Positions 4,238-20,268 of a DNA stretch of 64,000 nucleotides are shown here, one piece after another. The notes beneath the pieces are model-generated. The model searched no databases, was not told the DNA's origin, and saw only the letters and a list, made by a program, of their open reading frames with translations. This DNA is from Bdellovibrio svalbardensis (GTDB taxonomy: Bacteria; Bdellovibrionota; Bdellovibrionia; Bdellovibrionales; Bdellovibrionaceae). How positions within the stretch are numbered: the stretch's first letter is position 1; each line of letters starts with the position of its first letter. The translations under genes and the position numbers were made by a program. The DNA is taken from assembly GCF_029531655.1 (NCBI RefSeq), contig NZ_JANRMI010000005.1, forward strand, positions 62,001 through 126,000. The letters run 5' to 3'.

Positions 4238-4948
4238 TTAGTTAGGAATTCTACGAATGAGCTTTTCAACATAGGCGGCTTTCTTCAAACCGCGAGCCCC
4301 CTCTTTGTGAACACCCACTACATGACAAGTGTCCGCAAGCACCAGAGGTGAGCCCGATTGCCCGGGAGCAGTATCACAGTCATGCAAAATATTTGAAGCC
4401 GTCATCTGTTGAATCGAACACTGACGAAGCACGGGATCGGCTTCCAAATTCTTAGAAGGAAATCCCGCCGTCAGCAGTGCCACCCCTTCAGAAGGAGGTT
4501 CTGAGCCCGCATAAAGTGAGAGCACTTCCGTCTGACCTTCGCTGCAGGGACTTACTTTTAGAACTGCGACATCGTCATAAAGATTGATCATCAACACTTC
4601 CCTCATAGAAGTGGTAAAATTTTTTGTGCGCAATTGAAAATCTAAATCATGAGTTCGAACTTCTTCATTCACTTCATTGACGGCCTTCATCTCCATCTCG
4701 GGGATGCGTGACAACACCTGCGAGTACACGATCATCTTTTCGCGACCGAGCACAACATGGGCGTTGGTAACTATCAGACAGGACTGCACAAAAAAACCCG
4801 TTCCATGCCAAGTTTCGGCAGTGCTGTGCTTGTTGTAATAGATTTTTCCTACAGAGCGCAAAAGCTTCTCTTCGCAGTTAATTGACGGGCTCGCATAGCT
4901 TTGAGCTGAGAGCAAAATCGCTAAAAGGGATAGAATAGAAAATCGCAC
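4238..4948 (-). CDS. Exported trypsin-like serine protease
   Basis: A chymotrypsin-fold peptidase is indicated by the catalytic triad: His in TNAHVV (about residue 64), Asp in YDDVAVLKV and Ser in APGQSGSPLV. The N-terminus MRFSILSLLAILLSAQSYAS is a signal peptide, so it acts outside the cytoplasm. I place the start at the GTG at 4948, which has GAGAGG five bases upstream; a GTG at 4954 is also open but overlaps that site. At 236 aa it is a bare protease domain with no PDZ, unlike DegP. Several cysteines could form disulfides. The regulator gene upstream (5025-5789) is on the same strand but is separated by a strong terminator, so the protease needs its own promoter. Confidence 0.85.
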   Translation of the reverse strand: MRFSILSLLAILLSAQSYASPSINCEEKLLRSVGKIYYNKHSTAETWHGTGFFVQSCLIVTNAHVVLGREKMIVYSQVLSRIPEMEMKAVNEVNEEVRTHDLDFQLRTKNFTTSMREVLMINLYDDVAVLKVSPCSEGQTEVLSLYAGSEPPSEGVALLTAGFPSKNLEADPVLRQCSIQQMTASNILHDCDTAPGQSGSPLVLADTCHVVGVHKEGARGLKKAAYVEKLIRRIPN

Positions 4949-4975
4949 AAGCACCTCTCAAGACCTTCAAGGTGC

Positions 4976-5012
4976 AAAAAAAAGGCCCTGTCTCACTTTG
5001 AGACAGGGCCTT
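4976..5012 (-). terminator. Rho-independent terminator of the TIGR02147 gene
   Basis: Fourteen-bp perfect stem AAGGCCCTGTCTCA / TGAGACAGGGCCTT with a three-base loop, followed on the minus strand by an uninterrupted T-run. It starts 13 bases after the stop of the gene ending at 5025. Confidence 0.9.
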
Positions 5013-5024
5013 GGCAATACCTAA

Positions 5025-5789
5025 TTATTCAAGCTTGGACATCAATTGCATCACAACGCTCAGATTATAAACCTCGGTGCGCTCGCCCTTCTCGGACATC
5101 GCATGCAAACGGTCAAATACATTAGCCAAAAGTTTTCGCACCTTCGGGATGTCTTTCTTATCCAAAGAAACCACGAAAGTTCCAAACAAAGTATGCTCGC
5201 GACTTTGTTCCATGATTGTCGGTACAGTTTGCATAAGATAATCCCGATAAGCCGCACTGACGCGCTGAGGATCCTTGTGCTTGTTATGATAGCGGATTCC
5301 CGAAATCTTCTGACGGTAACCTTTTCCGCGATGAACAATGATATTGTGATCCACCAAAGCCTGGAGGCTTTTTTTCACCGTGCTGAGACTGTATCCCAGC
5401 TTCTTGGCAATCCATTGTGGATCATCATTATCTTTTCGAGTTTGCAACAAGGCCAGGATTGCATGCACTTCCACTGTATCGAGCTCTTTAGAATTGTAAT
5501 CGCTCAACTCAAGAAATTGTTCCACACTTTCTTCATCGAGCCCCTTGGAGGAACGCAAGCTGTTCGAAAAAATTTTCATTTCTTCAGCCGTCAAAGCCTT
5601 ACCAGAAAGAACCTTCGCATTGAAGCGATCGCCAGGTTGCTCTTTACCAGCCATGATCACAGAAAGGCGTCCTGCCGAAGTCCCCAGATCGCGCGCAAAG
5701 GCCCGCAATGAATAGCGTGGGTTGCGCTTCACGCGTTTTTCAAAAATATCTTTAATTGCCTGAGACGGATTTTCATTTTCTTTTGCCAT
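5025..5789 (-). CDS. TIGR02147-family putative transcription regulator
   Basis: The sequence fits TIGR02147 (DUF4423), a family I know from Bdellovibrio and Fibrobacter relatives. The N-terminal part (about residues 10-60: FEKRVKRNPRYSLRAFARDLG, then SAGRLSVIMAGK) is a helix-turn-helix. A second winged-helix-like part near 125-170 (WIAKKLGYSLSTVKKSLQALV) is followed by the typical tail that ends in a short helical segment. It is cytoplasmic and probably binds DNA; the target is unknown. ATG at 5789 lacks a strong ribosome site (GGAAGTAGAG some distance upstream). Monocistronic: a terminator precedes its promoter region and another follows the stop. Confidence 0.85.
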   Translation of the reverse strand: MAKENENPSQAIKDIFEKRVKRNPRYSLRAFARDLGTSAGRLSVIMAGKEQPGDRFNAKVLSGKALTAEEMKIFSNSLRSSKGLDEESVEQFLELSDYNSKELDTVEVHAILALLQTRKDNDDPQWIAKKLGYSLSTVKKSLQALVDHNIIVHRGKGYRQKISGIRYHNKHKDPQRVSAAYRDYLMQTVPTIMEQSREHTLFGTFVVSLDKKDIPKVRKLLANVFDRLHAMSEKGERTEVYNLSVVMQLMSKLE

Positions 5790-5818
5790 GGTGCTACTCT
5801 ACTTCCAGATTTTGAAAT

Positions 5819-5848
5819 AAAAAAAGCCCGATCTCTCGGGCTTTTTTT
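5819..5848 (-). terminator. Terminator of the mltD-like gene
   Basis: GCCCGA (5826-5831) and TCGGGC (5836-5841), four-base loop, flanked by A- and T-runs. It begins at the stop codon of the gene ending at 5848. Confidence 0.85.
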
Positions 5849-7428
5849 TAATTCTCGTTAGATTCAACCGCTGGGATCGTGATCCTTGCCCCCACAATCA
5901 GTGAGGAAGGATTTCTAATTTTGTTGCGAGCTTGAATCTTTGAAATCGCCACATTGTACTTTGAAGCGATGTCTGTAAGGCTTTCACCTTTTTTTACAAC
6001 ATGCACTTTATTCTTCGCCACTTCACGAGCCGAAGAACTGTTTGGGTTGCCGGAAACTGGCAGTTTCAATTTCATACCCAATTTCAATTTACTGCGTCTT
6101 TTGATGTTATTCAAATTCTGCAACTGAGAAACACTTGTTGAGTATTTCTGAGCAATCGTAAACAAAGACTCACCTGTTTGCACGATGTGGTAACGTCCAC
6201 CTTCATTGTCCATACCCGCCAAAGCCGAAGATTTCTTACCGGAAGAATCGTGCTTTGCTACATTGGCAGTCGATTTACGATCAGATCTGTCTTTAAGCGG
6301 AGTGCGATCTGGAACATAAATGCTCATCCCAACTTTCAAACGAGTCTTGCGAGGAAGATCGTTCAGATCACGAAGGTAAGCTACAGAAGTGCGGTAACGA
6401 CGAGCGATTGTTTTCAAATTATCGCCACGGCGGATTTTATAAGACTGAGTGTCACCTTGGTCAGCAACGAACTGAACTTGGTCTACGAAGGCTGCATTCG
6501 CCGCTACCATCGCCGCTTCATTTGTTCCTGGTGGAATACGAAGAACCAATTCTTGTCCTTTAACCGGAGCAACCTCACCTTTGAACTTTGGATTCAATGC
6601 TTTGAAGTCCTCGTAGTTCAAGCTCATCTTGTCAGCCATCTGACGAAGATTAACCGGTTTGTTCACAGTGATGTGATCGAACTCGATAGGTGGAAGATAG
6701 TCGATATCTTCGAAGCCGTATTTTGCTGGTTCTTTCGCGATCAACTTCGCCGCGATGAATTTAGGAACGTAATTGATTGTCTCCGCAGGAAGTCTTTTCT
6801 TACGAGCCAATTCCCAGAAATCGCGAGTGTAGTGATTCATCACTTCGCGCTTTACGCGGTTTTCACCAACGTTATAAGACGCCATCGCCAAATACCAAGA
6901 ACCGAATACGCTGTAGAGACCCTTGAAGTACTCAGCCGCTGCTTGAGTGGCAAATACCGGGTCACGTCTTTCATCAACAAAGGGACTGATTTCCAAACCG
7001 TAGCGTTTACCTGTGCCACGGATGAATTGCCAGTAACCCACAGCTGCTGCATGCGAAGTTGCCGCTGAGCTGAAGCCAGACTCAATCAATGCGATATAGA
7101 AAAGATCTTCAGGAAGACCGTTATCACGCAGAACTTTCTTCATCAGCTTTTCATAGCGAGAAGAACGCGCCAAATATCTTTCCATGTGTTCGCGACCGCG
7201 ACCTTGGAAATAAGTAATCCATTTTTCCACCAAAGGATTTACTTCCGTTGGAATAGATTCCAACTCTTGGTCCACGACCTTAGGGCCTTCAGGATCTGAT
7301 AAACGAAACGAACTTATGTCCTTCATTTCGACATCAGTTTCAGCCGCGTTAGTGGTTTTGCCCAAATCCTTGTGGGCGCATCCTGACAACAAAGCCAGGA
7401 TCACACTCATTGTTAAAAGTCTCCTCAT
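5848..7428 (-). CDS. mltD: Membrane-bound lytic murein transglycosylase, MltD-like, three LysM
   Basis: It cleaves peptidoglycan glycan strands to 1,6-anhydro products. The start is the ATG at 7428 (GGAGG just upstream), giving MRRLLTMSVILALLSGC, a lipoprotein signal with lipobox LLSGC; the longer GTG frame to 7446 has no good ribosome site. A lysozyme-like SLT domain covers about residues 100-230, with the catalytic Glu in ALIESGFS and the downstream AVGYWQFI and MASYNVGENRV motifs. Three LysM peptidoglycan-binding repeats follow at about 325-370, 405-450 and 475-520. Domain order and length match MltD. The Slt-like gene directly upstream on the same strand suggests a wall-remodelling pair. 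Confidence 0.93.
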   Translation of the reverse strand: MRRLLTMSVILALLSGCAHKDLGKTTNAAETDVEMKDISSFRLSDPEGPKVVDQELESIPTEVNPLVEKWITYFQGRGREHMERYLARSSRYEKLMKKVLRDNGLPEDLFYIALIESGFSSAATSHAAAVGYWQFIRGTGKRYGLEISPFVDERRDPVFATQAAAEYFKGLYSVFGSWYLAMASYNVGENRVKREVMNHYTRDFWELARKKRLPAETINYVPKFIAAKLIAKEPAKYGFEDIDYLPPIEFDHITVNKPVNLRQMADKMSLNYEDFKALNPKFKGEVAPVKGQELVLRIPPGTNEAAMVAANAAFVDQVQFVADQGDTQSYKIRRGDNLKTIARRYRTSVAYLRDLNDLPRKTRLKVGMSIYVPDRTPLKDRSDRKSTANVAKHDSSGKKSSALAGMDNEGGRYHIVQTGESLFTIAQKYSTSVSQLQNLNNIKRRSKLKLGMKLKLPVSGNPNSSSAREVAKNKVHVVKKGESLTDIASKYNVAISKIQARNKIRNPSSLIVGARITIPAVESNEN

Positions 7429-14089: not shown

Positions 14090-14151
14090 CCTAGCCCTTA
14101 GCTCCGTAAAACATTCCGACATATATTCCGAAAAAAGAGCTGGAGGAACTG

Positions 14152-16005
14152 ATGAAAAAACAGTGGAAGAGATTAGTTATTGCAGCTGTATGCTCGTCAT
14201 CAGTTTTTGCCGGCACCTATTATTGGTACAAATCCACAGATCTCTCTTCTTCCTCCCATGGCAATGAAAAACCTTTGGCCTACGTAGGCAAAGTCGTCGA
14301 CGACATTCAACGCCGTCCCGCTTCTCGATTGTTGTGGCAGCTCGTGAATCAAGGCGAACCTCTTTATAATGGTGAAGCCGTGCGTACTTCCGAGCGTGGT
14401 GAGGTGCGAATTCAATTCACCGATTCAGATCGCTATTTGGATCTGGAACCAGAATCACTCATCGTGATCAAAAAAACTGAAGGCGAAATCGCCCTTGATT
14501 TGATGGAAGGTAGTCTTTTCGTCAATGCCAAAGCTGGAGCCGCAGATGCTGCTGGCGCGCCAGGGCTGGTGCTCTCTTCTGCAAATGGAAAAGTCGATCT
14601 CTCGAATGCTTCCGCCGCTCTTTCCAAAGGGCGCGGCAGTGCTGTCGATGTCCAGGTCTTAGAGGGTAAAGCGTCTTTGAAGGGAAAAGATGGACAAAGC
14701 AAAGAACTCACGACGGGTTCTTTCGGTGCTTTGGGATCCAGCGGATTTGAGTTCGATAGAAATAACCTCAAAGTTTTAACTCCGGTCCAAAGCAAACCGA
14801 TTGCCATGGATGCGGAAGACATCAAAGAGATCCCTTTCCAATGGAGTGGCTTCCCACCAAACACCGAAGTGGCTTTGTGGGTGGGCCCAACCCGTAAATC
14901 AGTGAAGTTCTTAACCAAGGCTCCTTTGGGAAAATCAGATCTTTCAACCAAACTTCCATTTGGTAAACATTATTGGAAGCTGGTCGCTTCAACACCACAA
15001 GGTCAGGTCGTTGGAGAAAGTCCTATTTACAGAACAGAGGTTATTGCTCGCTATGCTCCCACAGTGGTCTTCCCGACTTCTGATGCTGAGATCCCAGCGA
15101 ACACGACTCCATTTGATATGAGTTTCAAATGGCAAAAAGGCGAGGACACTCGCTCTGTGACTTTGGAAATTTGGTCCGATGCTGAATTGAAACAAAAAAT
15201 CGCCTCTAAAACATTTAGTACTGAAGAAAGTTACACGCTGCCAGCGTTGAAGAGCGGCACCTACTTCTGGCGTATGAATTCTTACTATATTGATTCAGAC
15301 AAGCCCGTTCTGGGCAAGCTTCAGAAGTTTTCTGTCAAACCTGTTGCGCAGGTTCGCGTAGAAGCCGTGAAACCTCCGGTCGTTCCGGTCAACGTGGCAT
15401 TCACTATGCCGGAAAATAAACCATTTTATTATGTGGGCACACCGCAAATCAATCTGGCTTGGAACGCCGACAAAGTGGATCAAGTTTCTGGCTACCGCGT
15501 TAAACTGCATGGTGAAAACGAAGATCCTGCCACTGCGACCAGTATAGATATTAAAGAAAATAAATTAACCACCCCTGTGGCAAAGCCAGGTCGCTATATT
15601 GCCTCCATTGAGGCACTAGACAAAGAGGGCCAAGTACTGGGCACTTCGATTTCGCAGCCTTTAGAGGTTTCGCCTCTGCCAAACATCGCGGCTCCGGGCT
15701 TCATACCGGCTCAAGGTGTGCTGCAAGCTGGAACAGATGGTCGTTCACAACTTGAATGGACTTCCGTGGAAGGCGCAAAAGAATATTGGCTGACCGTCAA
15801 AAAAGATGGCAAAGAGCTCAAACGCACCAAATACACAACCAATGCCACTGCTTTAAGAAATTTATTGCCGGGCGAATATGATGTCGAGATTTCTGCAGTC
15901 GACACTTATGGCCGTTTGAGCGAAGTCAGTCCGACACGCAAACTCTTAGTACCTGATAAATCTGGCGTTCGCGCGCCGACATTGAAGAAAATCAAGGTGA
16001 ATTGA
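14152..16005 (+). CDS. FecR-domain periplasmic protein with Ig/FN3-like repeats
   Basis: The N-terminus has one membrane segment or signal (residues 5-22), then a FecR domain (about 40-200) recognisable by GEAVRTSERGEVRIQF, LDLEPESLIVI and DLMEGSLFVNAKAG. The rest is three or four beta-sandwich units of Ig/FN3 type (FQWSGFPPNTEVALWVG, FKWQKGEDTRSVTLEIW, LAWNADKVDQVSGYRVK, LEWTSVEGAKEYWLTV). It should sit in the periplasm and sense or scaffold. GCTGGAGGAACTG gives a strong ribosome site before the ATG at 14152. It is first in a three-gene operon coupled by TGATG to the next gene. Unlike FecR of iron uptake, there is no ECF sigma gene nearby. Confidence 0.82.
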   Translation: MKKQWKRLVIAAVCSSSVFAGTYYWYKSTDLSSSSHGNEKPLAYVGKVVDDIQRRPASRLLWQLVNQGEPLYNGEAVRTSERGEVRIQFTDSDRYLDLEPESLIVIKKTEGEIALDLMEGSLFVNAKAGAADAAGAPGLVLSSANGKVDLSNASAALSKGRGSAVDVQVLEGKASLKGKDGQSKELTTGSFGALGSSGFEFDRNNLKVLTPVQSKPIAMDAEDIKEIPFQWSGFPPNTEVALWVGPTRKSVKFLTKAPLGKSDLSTKLPFGKHYWKLVASTPQGQVVGESPIYRTEVIARYAPTVVFPTSDAEIPANTTPFDMSFKWQKGEDTRSVTLEIWSDAELKQKIASKTFSTEESYTLPALKSGTYFWRMNSYYIDSDKPVLGKLQKFSVKPVAQVRVEAVKPPVVPVNVAFTMPENKPFYYVGTPQINLAWNADKVDQVSGYRVKLHGENEDPATATSIDIKENKLTTPVAKPGRYIASIEALDKEGQVLGTSISQPLEVSPLPNIAAPGFIPAQGVLQAGTDGRSQLEWTSVEGAKEYWLTVKKDGKELKRTKYTTNATALRNLLPGEYDVEISAVDTYGRLSEVSPTRKLLVPDKSGVRAPTLKKIKVN

Positions 16006-17615
16006 TGATTCGACACCTGTTGATTTTCTTTTCAGTGATGTTTTTGTTTGCAGAGGTCAGCTCTGCGGCTCCTTATCGTCGTCTCGTGAACTTCGAGTGG
16101 GAAGCTATTGAAGGCGCAAAAACATATGAAATTGAACTGAAACAAGTGAAAGCAAAAGGCGAAGGAAAAACCTTTACCTTCAAAGTATCTGAAGCCGCTT
16201 GGAATGGTCGTTTGTCAGCGGGCAAATATATTATGAAGCTTCGCTCTCGTGACTATCGCGGCGTTCCTGGAGACTGGAGTGAGCCAAGCGATTTCAACGT
16301 GGGATTAGAGTCTGCTGTTCTAAAGTTCCCAGCACCTCGTTCACGCCTTGAAAGCAAAGACGAAACAACAACAGAAGTGAAATTTGACTGGGCCCCAGTT
16401 GGCGGTGCGGAAAAATATCACTTTGAACTCGTTTCTGAGGATGGAAAAACCACAATTCGCGAAGACCTTAAAGACACTAGTTTCAAGACAAAAGTTCCCG
16501 TTGCCAGCAACTATACTTGGAAGGTCTCTGCCACCAACGAAGAAGGCATTGAAAGCGATGCTGTCTCTGTTGGGCAATTCGCGGTCTTGGGCAAAGCCAT
16601 CGCGGCACCTAATCTGCAAAAACCTGAAACAGAATTTGTTCGTGAAGTGAAATGGACTCGCCCAGAAAACGTCTCGTCTTATGACGTCTTCCTTTTGAAA
16701 TACTCCGCAGAGAATAAAAAGTGGGAAAAGTTCAAAGTCATGGAAAACTATCAAGATGACAGCTTGTCCTTTGATCCCGCTTGGCCTGGCGGAAAATATC
16801 AAGTGGTGGTGCGCGCGAAATCTGCACTCCGCCCGTCTTCGACTCTGGCAAAAGAAAGTTTCACTGTTCGATCGGGGGATCGCTCCCCTGCCGCCGAATA
16901 CACGGCCCTGGTCCGCAGCTCGATTGAGCGCATGACCGGTTGGTATGCGATTGGCAGCTATCTGATCACTGAAATGAAGTTTGCGGGAGTCAATCCCGAA
17001 AGAAATTCTACCGTAGCCTACTCTGCCATCGGTGGCACGGCCCGCGTGGGACTAGGCTGGTTCAACCCAGGCACACCTTGGGGATTTTTGTCTATCATCG
17101 ATATGAGTGGTTTCACATTTAAAGGCACCACTCGCACTTTTGCTTCCGCCGAAATGAATGCCGTATATAGAAAATCAGTGGGTGATCGCGGCGAAGCCCG
17201 CTTCCAATTTGGTCCCTATTATAAGGAATTGCCTGAAACTGTTGGCGATCCTTTCAGTGGTACATCCTCTGATTTAACTATCAGCGCCGCGGGACCGCAT
17301 GTTGGCGCAGAGTACTGGTATTCTTTGACTCCTAAATTCGGCATTCAAGTGAATGCGCATCTCTATACTTCGCTCATGAAAGTGAGCACACCGAATGGCG
17401 AGCCTTTAGCTCCGACCATGTCGACTCAATTTGGATTTTTAGGAAGCTACCGCTTCACTCGTTCCCTCACGGGCTTGGCTGGCTATGCTCGTCGCGAAGA
17501 CAGACTGTCTTATAAGGCGGTCCCTAGCGCGACGAATTTCGCTGTCGATGGTGACGTGAACGAAGCCACGATTGTCGGTAACTACCTTAACATTTTCGCT
17601 GAATGGAGCTTCTGA
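16005..17615 (+). CDS. FN3-repeat protein with probable outer-membrane barrel
   Basis: The start is the ATG at 16005, overlapping the upstream stop as TGATG with AAGGTGAATTG ahead; the TTG at 16002 is less likely. A signal peptide covers residues 1-20 (cut after VSSA). Three FN3-like repeats follow, each opening with FEWEAIEGAKTYEIEL-type strands (about 25-110, 115-195, 205-290). The last 240 residues alternate polar and hydrophobic residues and end in Phe (NIFAEWSF), as in outer-membrane beta-barrels. It repeats the FN3 style of the preceding FecR protein, so the two may interact. Function unknown. Confidence 0.72.
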   Translation: MIRHLLIFFSVMFLFAEVSSAAPYRRLVNFEWEAIEGAKTYEIELKQVKAKGEGKTFTFKVSEAAWNGRLSAGKYIMKLRSRDYRGVPGDWSEPSDFNVGLESAVLKFPAPRSRLESKDETTTEVKFDWAPVGGAEKYHFELVSEDGKTTIREDLKDTSFKTKVPVASNYTWKVSATNEEGIESDAVSVGQFAVLGKAIAAPNLQKPETEFVREVKWTRPENVSSYDVFLLKYSAENKKWEKFKVMENYQDDSLSFDPAWPGGKYQVVVRAKSALRPSSTLAKESFTVRSGDRSPAAEYTALVRSSIERMTGWYAIGSYLITEMKFAGVNPERNSTVAYSAIGGTARVGLGWFNPGTPWGFLSIIDMSGFTFKGTTRTFASAEMNAVYRKSVGDRGEARFQFGPYYKELPETVGDPFSGTSSDLTISAAGPHVGAEYWYSLTPKFGIQVNAHLYTSLMKVSTPNGEPLAPTMSTQFGFLGSYRFTRSLTGLAGYARREDRLSYKAVPSATNFAVDGDVNEATIVGNYLNIFAEWSF

Positions 17616-19432
17616 TGAGAATTCCAATTTCGACCAAACTCATCACTGTTACGATCTTAATTCTCGTAGCTTCCACCGGAACCATCACTTGGATTTCGTC
17701 AAAGTACTTTGAGAAAAAAGCTTCTGAACAAGTGGATATCGCAAACTTGGAATCCGCAGCGGCAAAGGGCAAAGAGGTTGATAATATCATTTCTTCTTTG
17801 GTCGACAAAGCGCGTGTTTCCGGCTCCTTGTTGATGAAGGGCGCGAACTCTTCCGACGATTTAGAGTTCAACTTTTCTAAAGACAAAAACTTTATCGCCC
17901 TAGAAGTGCTTAAGCTGGACGGCTCCAGCGTCGAATCAGTCGCCCGCAAAGTCAAAGAGGATGTCTTCAAACCATTTAATTTGACCGGCGCTTACTTAAT
18001 CAATGTCCGTGCATGGCAAAAGTTCCCAATCCGCTCGGTCTCTCAAGGCAGTGTTGAAATTAAAAATGCGTCTTATCCGAAAGCGCCAGCGATGATCACT
18101 TTGGGGTTGCCACTTATTCGTGATGCTCAAGGAAAAATCACACACATTGTTTTGGCAGATGTGGCTTTGGCTCCGCTGGAAAAACCCTTCTCGGATCCAT
18201 CAGAAAGAACTCAGTACCTAATTGATCGTCAGGGCGAACTGTTGGCACATAAAGACGAACAAAAAGCGATCTCGCGTTTAAATATGAGCAGCAATCCCTT
18301 CGTGATGAAAGCCTTGGCTCAGAAGTCCCCACAGTTCCAGACGAAATTCTTAGATCCTGATTCTGAAGCAAACTATTTTGGTGCTTCTGTGAAGACTTCG
18401 TTTGGTGTCACCGTTGTCTCACAAACTTCGGAAGCTGCTATTCTTGAGGTATCAAACGAAGTGAAACGTCGTTCGATCTTCGTTGCCGGCTCTGCAATCT
18501 CGATGGCGATCTTCTTCATCTTTCTGTTCTCTATGACCCTCACCTCCCCGATTGAAAAACTGGCGGACATGATCCACTTGGTTTCAAAGGGTAACTTCAA
18601 TGTGAAAGCCCGTTCACAAGTCCGCTCCCACGACGAGGTGGGCGACTTGGCGGAAGCCTTTGACCAAATGACTGAGGGTTTGAAAGAACGTGATAAAGTA
18701 AAAAGCTTGTTCTCAAAATTCCATGGTTCCTCTGTCGCAGAAGACTTGATTGGCAAAGACATTGGTGTCGGTGGACAAAACAAAGACGTTGTCGTCTTCT
18801 TCTCAGATATCCGTGGTTTCACGGCCTTCTCTGAAAAAAGATCTCCGGAAGAAGTCGTTGAAATGTTGAATGAATACTTTGGCGTCATGGTTAAAGTGAT
18901 CAACTCCCATGGCGGAGTTGTGGATAAATTTATCGGTGATGCGATCATGGCGGTTTGGGGTGCACCTCGCAGTACGGATGAAGACGCTCACAAAGCATTG
19001 CGTGCGTGCCTGGAAATGCGCAAAAATTTGGCGATTCTCAATGAGTCACGCATTGCCCGAAACCAGCCGCCCATCAACATCGGAATGGGCTTGCACGCCG
19101 GCAAAGCGATCTCGGGCACCATCGGTTCTGACGAGCGCATGGAGTACACAGTCATCGGCAACACAGTCAATACGGCTTCACGTATCGAAGCCTCCACGAA
19201 GGCCTTCGGAGCGGACTTGCTGGTCACTGACTCAGTCATCGATAAAGTGGGCGAAGCCTTCAAAGTCGAACTGGCTGGAGCGGCGGAAGTTAAAGGTCGA
19301 TCTGAAGCCATCAAAATGTACAAAGTGCGCGCCTACCGCGAAGCCGACGGCACTTACACCGAAGTCAAAACAGCTTATTCAGACTACGAAGCCGAATCAG
19401 CAGACAAGGTAAAAATCAAAGACGCCGCCTAG
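17615..19432 (+). CDS. Membrane-bound class III adenylate/guanylate cyclase
   Basis: It likely makes cAMP or cGMP in response to a periplasmic signal. Start at ATG 17615 (TGATG overlap, GGAG upstream). Domains: membrane segment 1 (about 9-27), periplasmic sensor of Cache type (30-285), membrane segment 2 (287-308), HAMP (309-360), cyclase (about 385-570). The cyclase has both metal-binding Asp residues (FFSDIRGFTAF and FIGDAIMAVWGAP), plus NTASRIEAS with the transition-state Asn/Arg. It is the third gene of the FecR operon, so the envelope proteins upstream are probable inputs. The REP-like inverted pair begins at its stop codon. Confidence 0.9.
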   Translation: MRIPISTKLITVTILILVASTGTITWISSKYFEKKASEQVDIANLESAAAKGKEVDNIISSLVDKARVSGSLLMKGANSSDDLEFNFSKDKNFIALEVLKLDGSSVESVARKVKEDVFKPFNLTGAYLINVRAWQKFPIRSVSQGSVEIKNASYPKAPAMITLGLPLIRDAQGKITHIVLADVALAPLEKPFSDPSERTQYLIDRQGELLAHKDEQKAISRLNMSSNPFVMKALAQKSPQFQTKFLDPDSEANYFGASVKTSFGVTVVSQTSEAAILEVSNEVKRRSIFVAGSAISMAIFFIFLFSMTLTSPIEKLADMIHLVSKGNFNVKARSQVRSHDEVGDLAEAFDQMTEGLKERDKVKSLFSKFHGSSVAEDLIGKDIGVGGQNKDVVVFFSDIRGFTAFSEKRSPEEVVEMLNEYFGVMVKVINSHGGVVDKFIGDAIMAVWGAPRSTDEDAHKALRACLEMRKNLAILNESRIARNQPPINIGMGLHAGKAISGTIGSDERMEYTVIGNTVNTASRIEASTKAFGADLLVTDSVIDKVGEAFKVELAGAAEVKGRSEAIKMYKVRAYREADGTYTEVKTAYSDYEAESADKVKIKDAA

Positions 19433-19595
19433 GTACGGACACACCTTTGGTGTCGCTGATGCGTTAATTTGAAATAAAAAACCCACAGCTTTCATACTGT
19501 GGGTTTTTTATTTAATAACCGAAAGCCTTTATTCTTTTACTAAGATTCCATTTACTATTTTCTAACGCACTTGCGACACCAAAAGTGTGTCCGTA
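19432..19595. repeat. REP-like inverted pair enclosing a terminator
   Basis: The left arm (19432-19456) and the inverse of the right arm (19571-19595) read GGTACGGACACAC(C/T)TTTGGTGTCGC, 24 of 25 bases identical, and the similarity continues inward as TGCGTTA after a three-base gap. The 164-bp unit contains a bidirectional terminator. This is the shape of a bacterial interspersed mosaic element; no RAYT transposase gene is in the window. Confidence 0.7.
19472..19513. terminator. Bidirectional terminator, 17-bp arms
   Basis: A perfect 17-bp stem (19472-19488 / 19497-19513) with an ACCCACAG/CTGTGGGT core flanked by A and T runs. It serves the convergent cyclase and glutathione transferase genes. 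Confidence 0.9.
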
Positions 19596-19596
19596 C

Positions 19597-20268
19597 CTAT
19601 TTGAAAACAGGGCGGTGACTTTTTTCTTTGAGGGCTTCTTCCACCCAGAATTGGACGCCGTGATGTTCAACGATGTTTTTCATATATTTGCGAATCATTG
19701 AGTCCTGAATTTTAACTCCATAAGAGATGAAACGGAAAACCACGGGGGCAAAGAAGGCATCGGCGATGCAGAAGTCGCCGAACAGATACGGACCTTCACT
19801 CACCTTCAAGGCTGTGCGCCACAAATCCAAAATGCGGTTGATGTCTGCTATTGTACCATGACTTAAATGACGAAGATCACACTGCAAGCGAATGTCCATG
19901 CTCATTTGCGAGCGCAAGTTGGCAAAACCAGAATGCACTTCTGCCGCGTAACTACGCGCCAATGCGCGGGCCCCGATATCTTCAGGCCACAAGTGTGCTT
20001 CCGGTGAAAGATCATTCAAGTATTCAGCAATCGCCAATGAATCCCAAATAACGATCATTCCCTGTTTCAGGGCCGGAACTTTTCCAGAAGGCGAATGCTT
20101 TGCGATTTGTGCAGCAGTTCCCGGTTCATCCAATTTGATATTGATCTCTTTAAAGGGAAGACCTGACTGCACAGCCACCAACCAGGCGCGCATGGACCAC
20201 GACGAAAAAGATTTGTCGCCGATAACAAGGTCAAAAACAGGTTTGTCGCTGTGAACATGATAAGCCAT
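19597..20268 (-). CDS. Glutathione S-transferase family protein
   Basis: A two-domain GST fold. The thioredoxin-like N-domain (residues about 10-90) has SFSSWSMRAWLVA, where the catalytic Ser/Tyr position should be, then SGKVPALKQG (cis-Pro for glutathione binding) and WDSLAIAEYLND. The helical C-domain runs from about 100 to 215. It probably conjugates or reduces electrophiles in the cytosol; the physiological substrate is unknown. ATG at 20268 has CGGAGG seven bases upstream. It is monocistronic, with a terminator on each side. Confidence 0.9.
   Translation of the reverse strand: MAYHVHSDKPVFDLVIGDKSFSSWSMRAWLVAVQSGLPFKEINIKLDEPGTAAQIAKHSPSGKVPALKQGMIVIWDSLAIAEYLNDLSPEAHLWPEDIGARALARSYAAEVHSGFANLRSQMSMDIRLQCDLRHLSHGTIADINRILDLWRTALKVSEGPYLFGDFCIADAFFAPVVFRFISYGVKIQDSMIRKYMKNIVEHHGVQFWVEEALKEKSHRPVFK

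Follow-up and report, generated by a model that had tools for sequence, protein, structure and literature searches.

Organization of the three-gene operon

The window is a 64,000-nucleotide stretch of Bdellovibrio svalbardensis DNA. Between positions 14152 and 19432, the list of open reading frames and direct reading of the sequence revealed three plus-strand open reading frames, each adjoining the next through a TGATG. The features are as follows.

14142..14146, + strand, Shine-Dalgarno-like GGAGG 5' of gene 1 (direct reading)
14152..16005, + strand, gene 1, FecR-FN3 protein, 617 aa (open reading frame)
16003..16007, + strand, TGATG stop/start overlap from gene 1 to gene 2 (direct reading)
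16005..17615, + strand, gene 2, FN3-barrel outer-membrane protein, 536 aa (open reading frame)
17613..17617, + strand, TGATG stop/start overlap from gene 2 to gene 3 (direct reading)
17615..19432, + strand, gene 3, predicted membrane adenylate cyclase, 605 aa (open reading frame)
19480..19510, + strand, intrinsic-terminator-like hairpin and T run 3' of gene 3, AACCCACAG...CTGTGGGTTTTTT (direct reading)

The TTG at position 16002 was a mechanical call for the start of gene 2, and the ATG at position 16005 was taken instead. Among 30 loci of the genus and family, the junction between the FecR and barrel genes was exactly TGATG in 28, while the junction between the barrel and cyclase genes was a -1 base overlap in 8 and mostly ranged from -4 to +19 bases in the remainder. 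The second TGATG is thus not general, although tight spacing is. Both overlaps of the original prediction were found, and the recurrence of the close junctions is above chance; overlaps and tight spacing together support the coupled operon that it had proposed. Judged from the sequence, the three genes are translationally coupled or tightly spaced.

The FecR-FN3 protein encoded by gene 1

The AlphaFold2 (AF2) model of the gene 1 protein (pLDDT 84) and the domain scans gave the following parts.

aa ~2-36, N-terminal membrane anchor (AF2 model and domain scan)
14278..14766, + strand, aa ~43-205, FecR-like domain (Pfam on the family, AF2 and PupR fold match)
aa ~206-300, 301-402, 410-510 and 511-601, four FN3/Ig-like domains (Pfam and AF2)

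The Pfam scan of the window protein by itself produced no FecR match. However, PF04773 (FecR) matched 15 of the 18 members of the gene 1 family, with a best value of 1.5e-9, and the FecR region of the AF2 model matched the PupR signalling domain (6ovk_R) with a Z score of 16.5 and an rmsd of 2.1 Å over 134 residues. The family scan and the PupR fold settle the FecR status of gene 1 despite the single-sequence result, as had been predicted. The other structure-comparison matches were generic FN3 tandems and were not informative. The FecR/PupR signalling fold is a known signal-receiving domain, and the PupR domain takes signals from an outer-membrane partner.

The AF2 model and the domain scan further placed the start of the membrane helix at about residue 8. 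Since merely some 7 residues precede the helix, gene 1 would have no cytoplasmic anti-sigma domain, and none was detected at the N terminus by Pfam (window protein and family members) or in the AF2 model. In the model, the gene 1 product is held in the inner membrane by a single N-terminal helix with few cytoplasmic residues.

The FN3-barrel protein encoded by gene 2

The gene 2 protein begins with a signal peptide, which is followed by these parts.

aa ~23-101, 102-196 and 197-290, three periplasmic FN3 domains (Pfam and AF2)
between the FN3 domains and the barrel, a linker helix (AF2)
16935..17612, + strand, aa ~311-536, 10-strand outer-membrane beta-barrel (AF2 and fold comparison)

The fn3 match of gene 2 in Pfam scored 26.6 bits against a cut-off of 25, and its FN3 tandems gave fold matches with Z scores up to 13.1. 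The AF2 model (pLDDT 87.1) has ten long strands, and fold comparison matched the barrel to OpcA (1k24; Z 22.3, rmsd 2.9 Å, 208 residues) and to OmpT (Z 16.8), which supports an outer-membrane barrel. While the barrel fold is common to gene 2 and the 10-strand outer-membrane barrels of OpcA and OmpT, the identity is about 10%, gene 2 has three periplasmic FN3 domains ahead of its barrel, and no function is transferred from these proteins. The FN3 domains are on the N-terminal side of the modelled barrel and are placed in the periplasm by topology. Pfam and AF2 therefore agree with the earlier view that the first two genes encode envelope proteins with FN3-type domains.

Comparison with the classical FecR circuit

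The FecR domain and fold of gene 1 could point to classical anti-sigma cell-surface signalling with a sigma factor missed elsewhere, and the genome has four Sigma70_r4_2 matches above the cut-off. On the other hand, the few residues before the gene 1 helix leave no cytoplasmic anti-sigma domain, and neither an ECF sigma factor nor a TonB receptor was found among the 9 scanned neighbours of the trio. The single Plug-domain protein genome-wide is on another contig, and the 10-stranded barrel of gene 2 gave no Plug, STN or TonB-receptor match in Pfam or fold comparison. Classical sigma signalling is extremely improbable on this evidence and was rejected, in line with the original prediction that this is not a FecI/FecR/FecA circuit. 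The trio resembles FecI/FecR/FecA and PupI/PupR/PupB in pairing an inner-membrane-anchored periplasmic signalling fold with an outer-membrane barrel, but differs from them in having FN3 arrays and a cyclase output and in lacking the anti-sigma domain, sigma factor, TonB receptor and STN.

The predicted membrane adenylate cyclase encoded by gene 3

Gene 3 encodes, in order, TM1, a dCache-type sensor, TM2, a HAMP domain (aa 305-357), a transducer linker, the cyclase and a conserved C-terminal tail. Two of these parts are located as follows.

17705..18475, + strand, aa ~31-287, periplasmic dCache-like sensor (Pfam on the window protein and family)
18773..19339, + strand, aa ~389-570, class III cyclase catalytic domain (Pfam, structural relatives and residues)

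The Pfam matches of the gene 3 protein were PF00211 (2e-29), PF00672 (2.2e-9) and PF02743 (dCache_1; 2.2e-5), the last at 24.6 bits and below the curated cut-off of 45. In the family, PF00211 and PF00672 matched 20 of 20 members each and dCache_1 matched 19 of 20, with a best value of 2.8e-12, which bears out the predicted membrane cyclase with a periplasmic Cache sensor. No CHASE2 match was found by Pfam in the 20 family members.

The closest solved relatives of the catalytic domain, 2w01 and 6fht (E values of 1.4e-35 and 8.7e-37), were deposited as adenylate cyclase. While gene 3 has its catalytic domain in common with class III adenylate cyclases of this type, it differs from them in its dCache-HAMP input and coupled envelope partners. 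Residues D398, D442, K438, T512, N519 and R523 are invariant in 20 sequences, and we take them to be the two metal Asp, the purine-binding Lys and Thr/Asp, and the transition-state Asn and Arg. By sequence and predicted structure, gene 3 carries a complete adenylate-type catalytic set and spans the inner membrane. Because the set is adenylate-type, the predicted product is cAMP and not cGMP, which is more specific than the cyclic-nucleotide output proposed earlier. The mean pairwise identity was 0.39 for the sensor compared with 0.76 for the catalytic domain.

Conservation of the trio in Bdellovibrionota

Conservation of the trio in other Bdellovibrionota had been set beforehand as a test, and the result was strongly positive. 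This gene order recurs in 23 of the 24 genomes of the genus, in 7 further genera and in all 20 of the named loci that were fetched. Elsewhere in the phylum, in other orders and classes, the three genes are still neighbours, whether co-directional, convergent or divergent, so rearrangement has not separated them. The gene-order comparison indicates that the trio is kept together by selection. All 36 relatives that have a full barrel also have the cyclase sensor, compared with about 4 of the 24 that lack one, counts that are not corrected for relatedness. In the other classes, the barrel family differs and mainly the FN3 part aligns.

Two genomes suggested that the sensor might consist of the FecR-FN3 protein and the cyclase alone, the barrel being an outer-membrane anchor or an unrelated co-expressed passenger. 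In genome G026 no full barrel was found, and the FecR and cyclase genes are still adjacent and coupled; in genome G004 the barrel is on another contig while FecR and cyclase remain adjacent. However, the FecR and barrel genes are contiguous in nearly all other genomes, even where the cyclase is on the opposite strand, and theirs is the most conserved overlap. We therefore regard a sensor without the barrel as quite unlikely. The FecR protein and the cyclase may instead be a core pair, with the barrel an input that was lost or replaced in some lineages.

The original prediction had suggested prey or wall state as the signal. 'Bdellovibrio qaytius', which is classed as epibiotic (PMC11656739), has the trio, as do deep relatives, and P. 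exovorus JSS, an epibiotic predator, lacks it. Since the trio does not follow prey invasion in any simple way, its distribution supports neither that suggestion nor a role specific to prey invasion.

A FecR-FN3 paralogue paired with a phosphatase

A FecR-FN3 paralogue of gene 1 (homology E 2e-28; PF04773 at 30.4 bits against a cut-off of 24) lies in the same genome, head to head with a dCache-HAMP-SpoIIE phosphatase. The pairing is present in all 24 genomes of the genus and in 4 additional genera, and a FecR-FN3/HAMP-SpoIIE pair also occurs in another class of the phylum (locus L121). BLASTP comparison of the cyclase and phosphatase sensors gave no significant similarity (E 1.2), so that the two are related solely at the level of the dCache profile. 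The pairings show that FecR-FN3 proteins accompany HAMP-type membrane enzymes of either output. We tentatively suggest that in Bdellovibrionota the FecR fold may have been turned to sigma-free, modular trans-envelope signalling, in which FecR-FN3 proteins, whether or not accompanied by an FN3-barrel in the outer membrane, would control dCache HAMP-type enzymes with an exchangeable output, either adenylate cyclase or SpoIIE-type phosphatase.

Proposed trans-envelope cAMP signalling

Membrane adenylate cyclases beside FecR-domain proteins have a precedent. In Campylobacterota, a CHASE2-adenylate cyclase clusters with a FecR-domain protein, a TPR protein and a cAMP phosphodiesterase (PMC9239204). 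The cyclase there, as here, is beside a FecR-domain envelope protein and not a sigma factor, and the trio is thus a variant of a known clustering. The sensor is dCache-HAMP here and CHASE2 there, an outer-membrane barrel carrying FN3 domains takes the place of the TPR protein, and the operon here has no phosphodiesterase gene.

We consider it somewhat probable that the trio is a three-part trans-envelope cAMP signalling module in which the barrel and the FecR-FN3 protein act on the cyclase, and we infer that the parts are physically coupled. The module is favoured because the trio is conserved, the presence of its parts is linked, FecR and cyclase persist without an adjacent barrel, the FecR paralogue pairs with HAMP-SpoIIE, gene 1 has the PupR fold, and the Campylobacterota clusters provide a precedent. 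The gene neighbourhood likewise suggests, as first predicted, that the cyclase takes its input from the envelope proteins. The FN3 domains of the barrel protein would contact the FecR-FN3 protein across the periplasm, and the latter would act on the periplasmic sensor of the cyclase. From there, the signal would travel through the HAMP domain and transducer linker to the cyclase dimer and either increase or decrease cAMP, which could act via some of the 18 cNMP-binding domains in the genome. Against the module, genes can be adjacent and co-expressed without their products touching, the cyclase's own Cache-type sensor could answer a small ligand alone, and the barrel family is not constant among classes.

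Alternatively, the FecR-FN3 and FN3-barrel proteins may form an envelope structure, either a membrane tether or a surface adhesin, under cAMP control, with the cyclase sensing its own small ligand and the operon merely co-expressing them. FN3 proteins frequently have structural or adhesive roles, small molecules are the usual ligands of Cache domains, and the best solved match of the barrel, OpcA, is an adhesin/invasin. The S. meliloti FecR-domain protein SMc02177 is a transcriptional target of cAMP-Clr (PMC5498481), so a FecR protein can be controlled by cAMP instead of acting as its input. However, loss or relocation of the barrel leaves FecR beside the cyclase, the FecR fold is known for receiving signals, and a FecR-FN3 paralogue is paired with another dCache-HAMP enzyme, as would be expected of a signalling partner more than of a common structural part. 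An envelope structure under cAMP control therefore appears rather unlikely.

Relation to Bdellovibrio cAMP signalling

In strain HD100, Bd1971 is a cAMP-stimulated c-di-GMP phosphodiesterase and one proven cAMP receptor (PMC6717892). The operon adds a cyclase that is conserved deep into the phylum, along with identified candidate partners in the envelope, in a genus that lives by what comes into contact with its outer membrane. If the partners control the cyclase, FecR signalling would reach past sigma factors to second messengers and phosphatases.

The literature searched contained nothing linking FecR to Bdellovibrio signalling, nor FecR together with FN3, cyclase and outer membrane. In the Bdellovibrio AlphaFold-Multimer paper, adenylate cyclase occurs solely as a two-hybrid assay. 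The HD100 orthologue of gene 3 is very probably bd1116, since the candidate and the transglycosylase gene taken to be Bd1124 are 8 genes apart and the three class III cyclases of HD100 fit the tags bd1116, bd2640 and bd3072 in order. The two partner genes next to it in HD100 are probably bd1117 and bd1118. Since bd1116 is already listed as an adenylate cyclase (PMC6717892), what is new relative to the literature searched is the pair of envelope proteins encoded with it and how deeply they are conserved; that source names only the cyclase gene, and the FecR and barrel partners were mentioned in none of the passages found.

The immediate neighbours of the trio encode GreA, GST, a phosphate-binding-type protein and others, and a TPR-bearing SLT gene is about 4 kb off on the other strand.

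Organization and conservation of the operon

Three genes are arranged head to tail in the window:

14152-16005, + strand: gene 1, an ORF of 617 aa (FecR-FN3 protein)
16005-17615, + strand: gene 2, an ORF of 536 aa (FN3-barrel protein)
17615-19432, + strand: gene 3, an ORF of 605 aa (dCache-HAMP-class III cyclase)

In the sequence, GGAGG was read upstream of gene 1; downstream of gene 3 there is a hairpin and a T run. Two arms of roughly 26 bases (GGTACGGACACACCTTTGGTGTCGC), at 19431-19456 and 19573-19599, form an imperfect inverted repeat on either side of the terminator-like hairpin; they run into the end of the cyclase gene on one side and of the convergent GST gene on the other.

The original prediction held that the trio is coupled by TGATG at both junctions, where the stop codon and the next start codon share one base. 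Both overlaps are present in the window, and the gene 1/gene 2 junction was exactly TGATG in 28 of the 30 genus and family loci. However, a one-base overlap at the gene 2/gene 3 junction was found in only 8 of 30 loci, with spacing elsewhere mostly of -4 to +19 bases. Thus, the first overlap is a conserved feature, while the second is one form of a generally tight spacing.

Conserved order, which the original prediction had named as support, was found: FecR, barrel and cyclase genes stood in this order in each of the 30 loci of the first survey, of which 23 belong to the genus (24 genomes), and in all 20 named loci taken from a separate collection, most of which also share recognisable neighbours, including greA or hisS. 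In the remaining genus genome (G004), the FecR and cyclase genes are still together and the barrel gene lies elsewhere. The trio genes are also neighbours in other families and other classes of the phylum, in co-directional, convergent or divergent orientation. Searches of 60 relatives detected the barrel protein in 45 and the cyclase sensor likewise in 45. By our count, uncorrected for relatedness, the sensor was present in 36/36 relatives with a full-length barrel versus about 4/24 without; among these four or so, two had a divergent barrel nearby and one was at a contig end. In genome G026, where the full barrel is absent, the FecR and cyclase genes overlap by 4 bases. Two trios of another class encode a DUF5122 beta-propeller protein between the barrel and the cyclase (L110:6397-8196 and L111:1280-4156), which is possibly a fourth component.

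Domain content of the three proteins

While the gene 1 protein searched alone gave no FecR match, PF04773 matched 15 of 18 members of its family (best E value, 1.5e-9). In the AlphaFold2 model (mean pLDDT, 84), a single helix at the N terminus precedes a beta-rich domain (approximately residues 43-205) and four FN3/Ig-like domains. The best solved match was 6ovk_R, the cell-surface signalling domain of PupR (Z score 16.5, rmsd 2.1 A, 134 residues), which scored well above the FN3 structures ranked under it. Since the N terminus consists of about 7 residues followed by a hydrophobic stretch with aromatic residues at its end, and comparison across relatives found no conserved cleavage motif, we read the helix as a putative inner-membrane anchor. 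There is no space for an anti-sigma domain.

The gene 2 protein begins with a signal peptide, continues with three FN3 domains and ends in a barrel. Its model (mean pLDDT, 87.1) shows ten long strands between residues 312 and 535, joined by short loops. Solved matches of the barrel include OpcA (Z score 22.3 over 208 residues) and OmpT (Z score 16.8), at about 10% identity, and the domain search gave no Plug, STN or TonB-receptor match. The tested loops are among the least conserved parts, with mean pairwise identity of 0.20-0.26 in four of five loops versus 0.48 for the whole barrel.

In one genus member, the barrel gene appears to be interrupted by a frameshift at about codon 459 (G013:C1:792610-794224). 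Genomes G003, G014, G017, G035, G051 and G225 encode proteins some 300 aa long that match only the FN3 part of the barrel protein and have no barrel. In the window's genome, a 672-aa FN3-barrel paralogue (L058, G000:C2:444000-455000, at 4685-7282) adjoins a small TM/FN3 protein (190 aa) that is similar to gene 1 only at the latter's C-terminal end; no cyclase adjoins this pair.

The gene 3 protein matched cyclase (2e-29), HAMP (2.2e-9) and, below the curated cut-off, dCache_1 (2.2e-5); these domains were found in 20/20, 20/20 and 19/20 family members, respectively. Residues D398, D442, K438, T512, N519 and R523 are invariant in 20 family sequences. D398 and D442 are the metal aspartates, K438 and T512 the adenylate-type lysine and threonine, and N519 and R523 the active-site asparagine and arginine. 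The nearest solved relatives were deposited as adenylate cyclases. The sensor is much more variable than the catalytic domain (identity, 0.39 versus 0.76). A C-terminal tail (window 19340-19429) with a motif like TPYSDYEAExADKVKI is kept in most of the family and absent from the qaytius group.

A sister module with a phosphatase output

The window's genome encodes a second FecR-FN3 protein (G000:C2, L130:7734-9890), which exceeds the FecR cut-off and is homologous to gene 1 along most of its length (E value, 2e-28). Head to head with it lies the gene for a protein of 611 aa that combines dCache, HAMP and SpoIIE-type phosphatase domains (pair at L130:7734-11906). This adjacency holds in 24/24 genus genomes and also in four other genera. 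BLASTP found no significant similarity between the cyclase and phosphatase sensors of the window's genome. In a genome of another class (L121), a FecR-FN3 protein adjoins a HAMP-SpoIIE protein whose sensor region aligned weakly with the cyclase sensor. Together with the trio, these pairs therefore define a recurring unit: a periplasmic FecR-FN3 protein and an adjoining inner-membrane enzyme of the HAMP type, which comes with either of two outputs.

Relation to known systems and proposed mechanism

The trio shares the FecR fold with the FecI/FecR/FecA class but none of its three other defining features, and thus lies outside that class. In Campylobacterota, a FecR-domain protein, a TPR protein and a cAMP phosphodiesterase are clustered with CHASE2 adenylate cyclases (PMC9239204). 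The FecR-cyclase link is common to both systems; the trio lacks the CHASE2 sensor, the TPR protein and the phosphodiesterase, and what differs here is its dCache-HAMP sensor, FN3 arrays and FN3-barrel. A literature search, with most subscription journals outside its scope, found no text linking FecR to Bdellovibrio signalling.

The trio is probably best read as an envelope-spanning control of the cyclase. The analysis established which domains the proteins contain, how they are predicted to fold, where their sequences place them relative to the membranes, and that the genes are coupled and conserved and the catalytic residues present. The periplasmic FN3 domains of the barrel and the FecR-FN3 protein would together bridge the envelope, the FecR-FN3 protein would set the state of the cyclase sensor, and the changed sensor state would alter cAMP; in this scheme each contact within the trio is proposed, as are the direction in which control runs, the signal and the targets. 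In the main alternative, the envelope proteins would be cAMP-controlled outputs or structures, as cAMP-Clr of S. meliloti targets a FecR protein (PMC5498481), but we regard this as rather unlikely. The window's genome has 18 cNMP-binding domains versus only two class III cyclase domains, that is, many possible cAMP receptors and few cAMP sources. One cAMP receptor, Bd1971, is known from B. bacteriovorus HD100 (PMC6717892).

The HD100 counterpart and predation

The original prediction also suggested a signal possibly about prey or wall state. The trio was absent from P. exovorus JSS and present in 'Bdellovibrio qaytius' of the same GTDB genus, so a tie to prey invasion is unsupported. In HD100, the trio lies at 1,049,541-1,054,805, eight genes away from a transglycosylase gene taken as Bd1124 (PMC11656739). 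PMC6717892 lists Bd1116 as one of four genes annotated as adenylate cyclases, and the order of the three HD100 class III cyclases fits bd1116, bd2640 and bd3072. By gene count from Bd1124, we infer that the HD100 trio cyclase is Bd1116.
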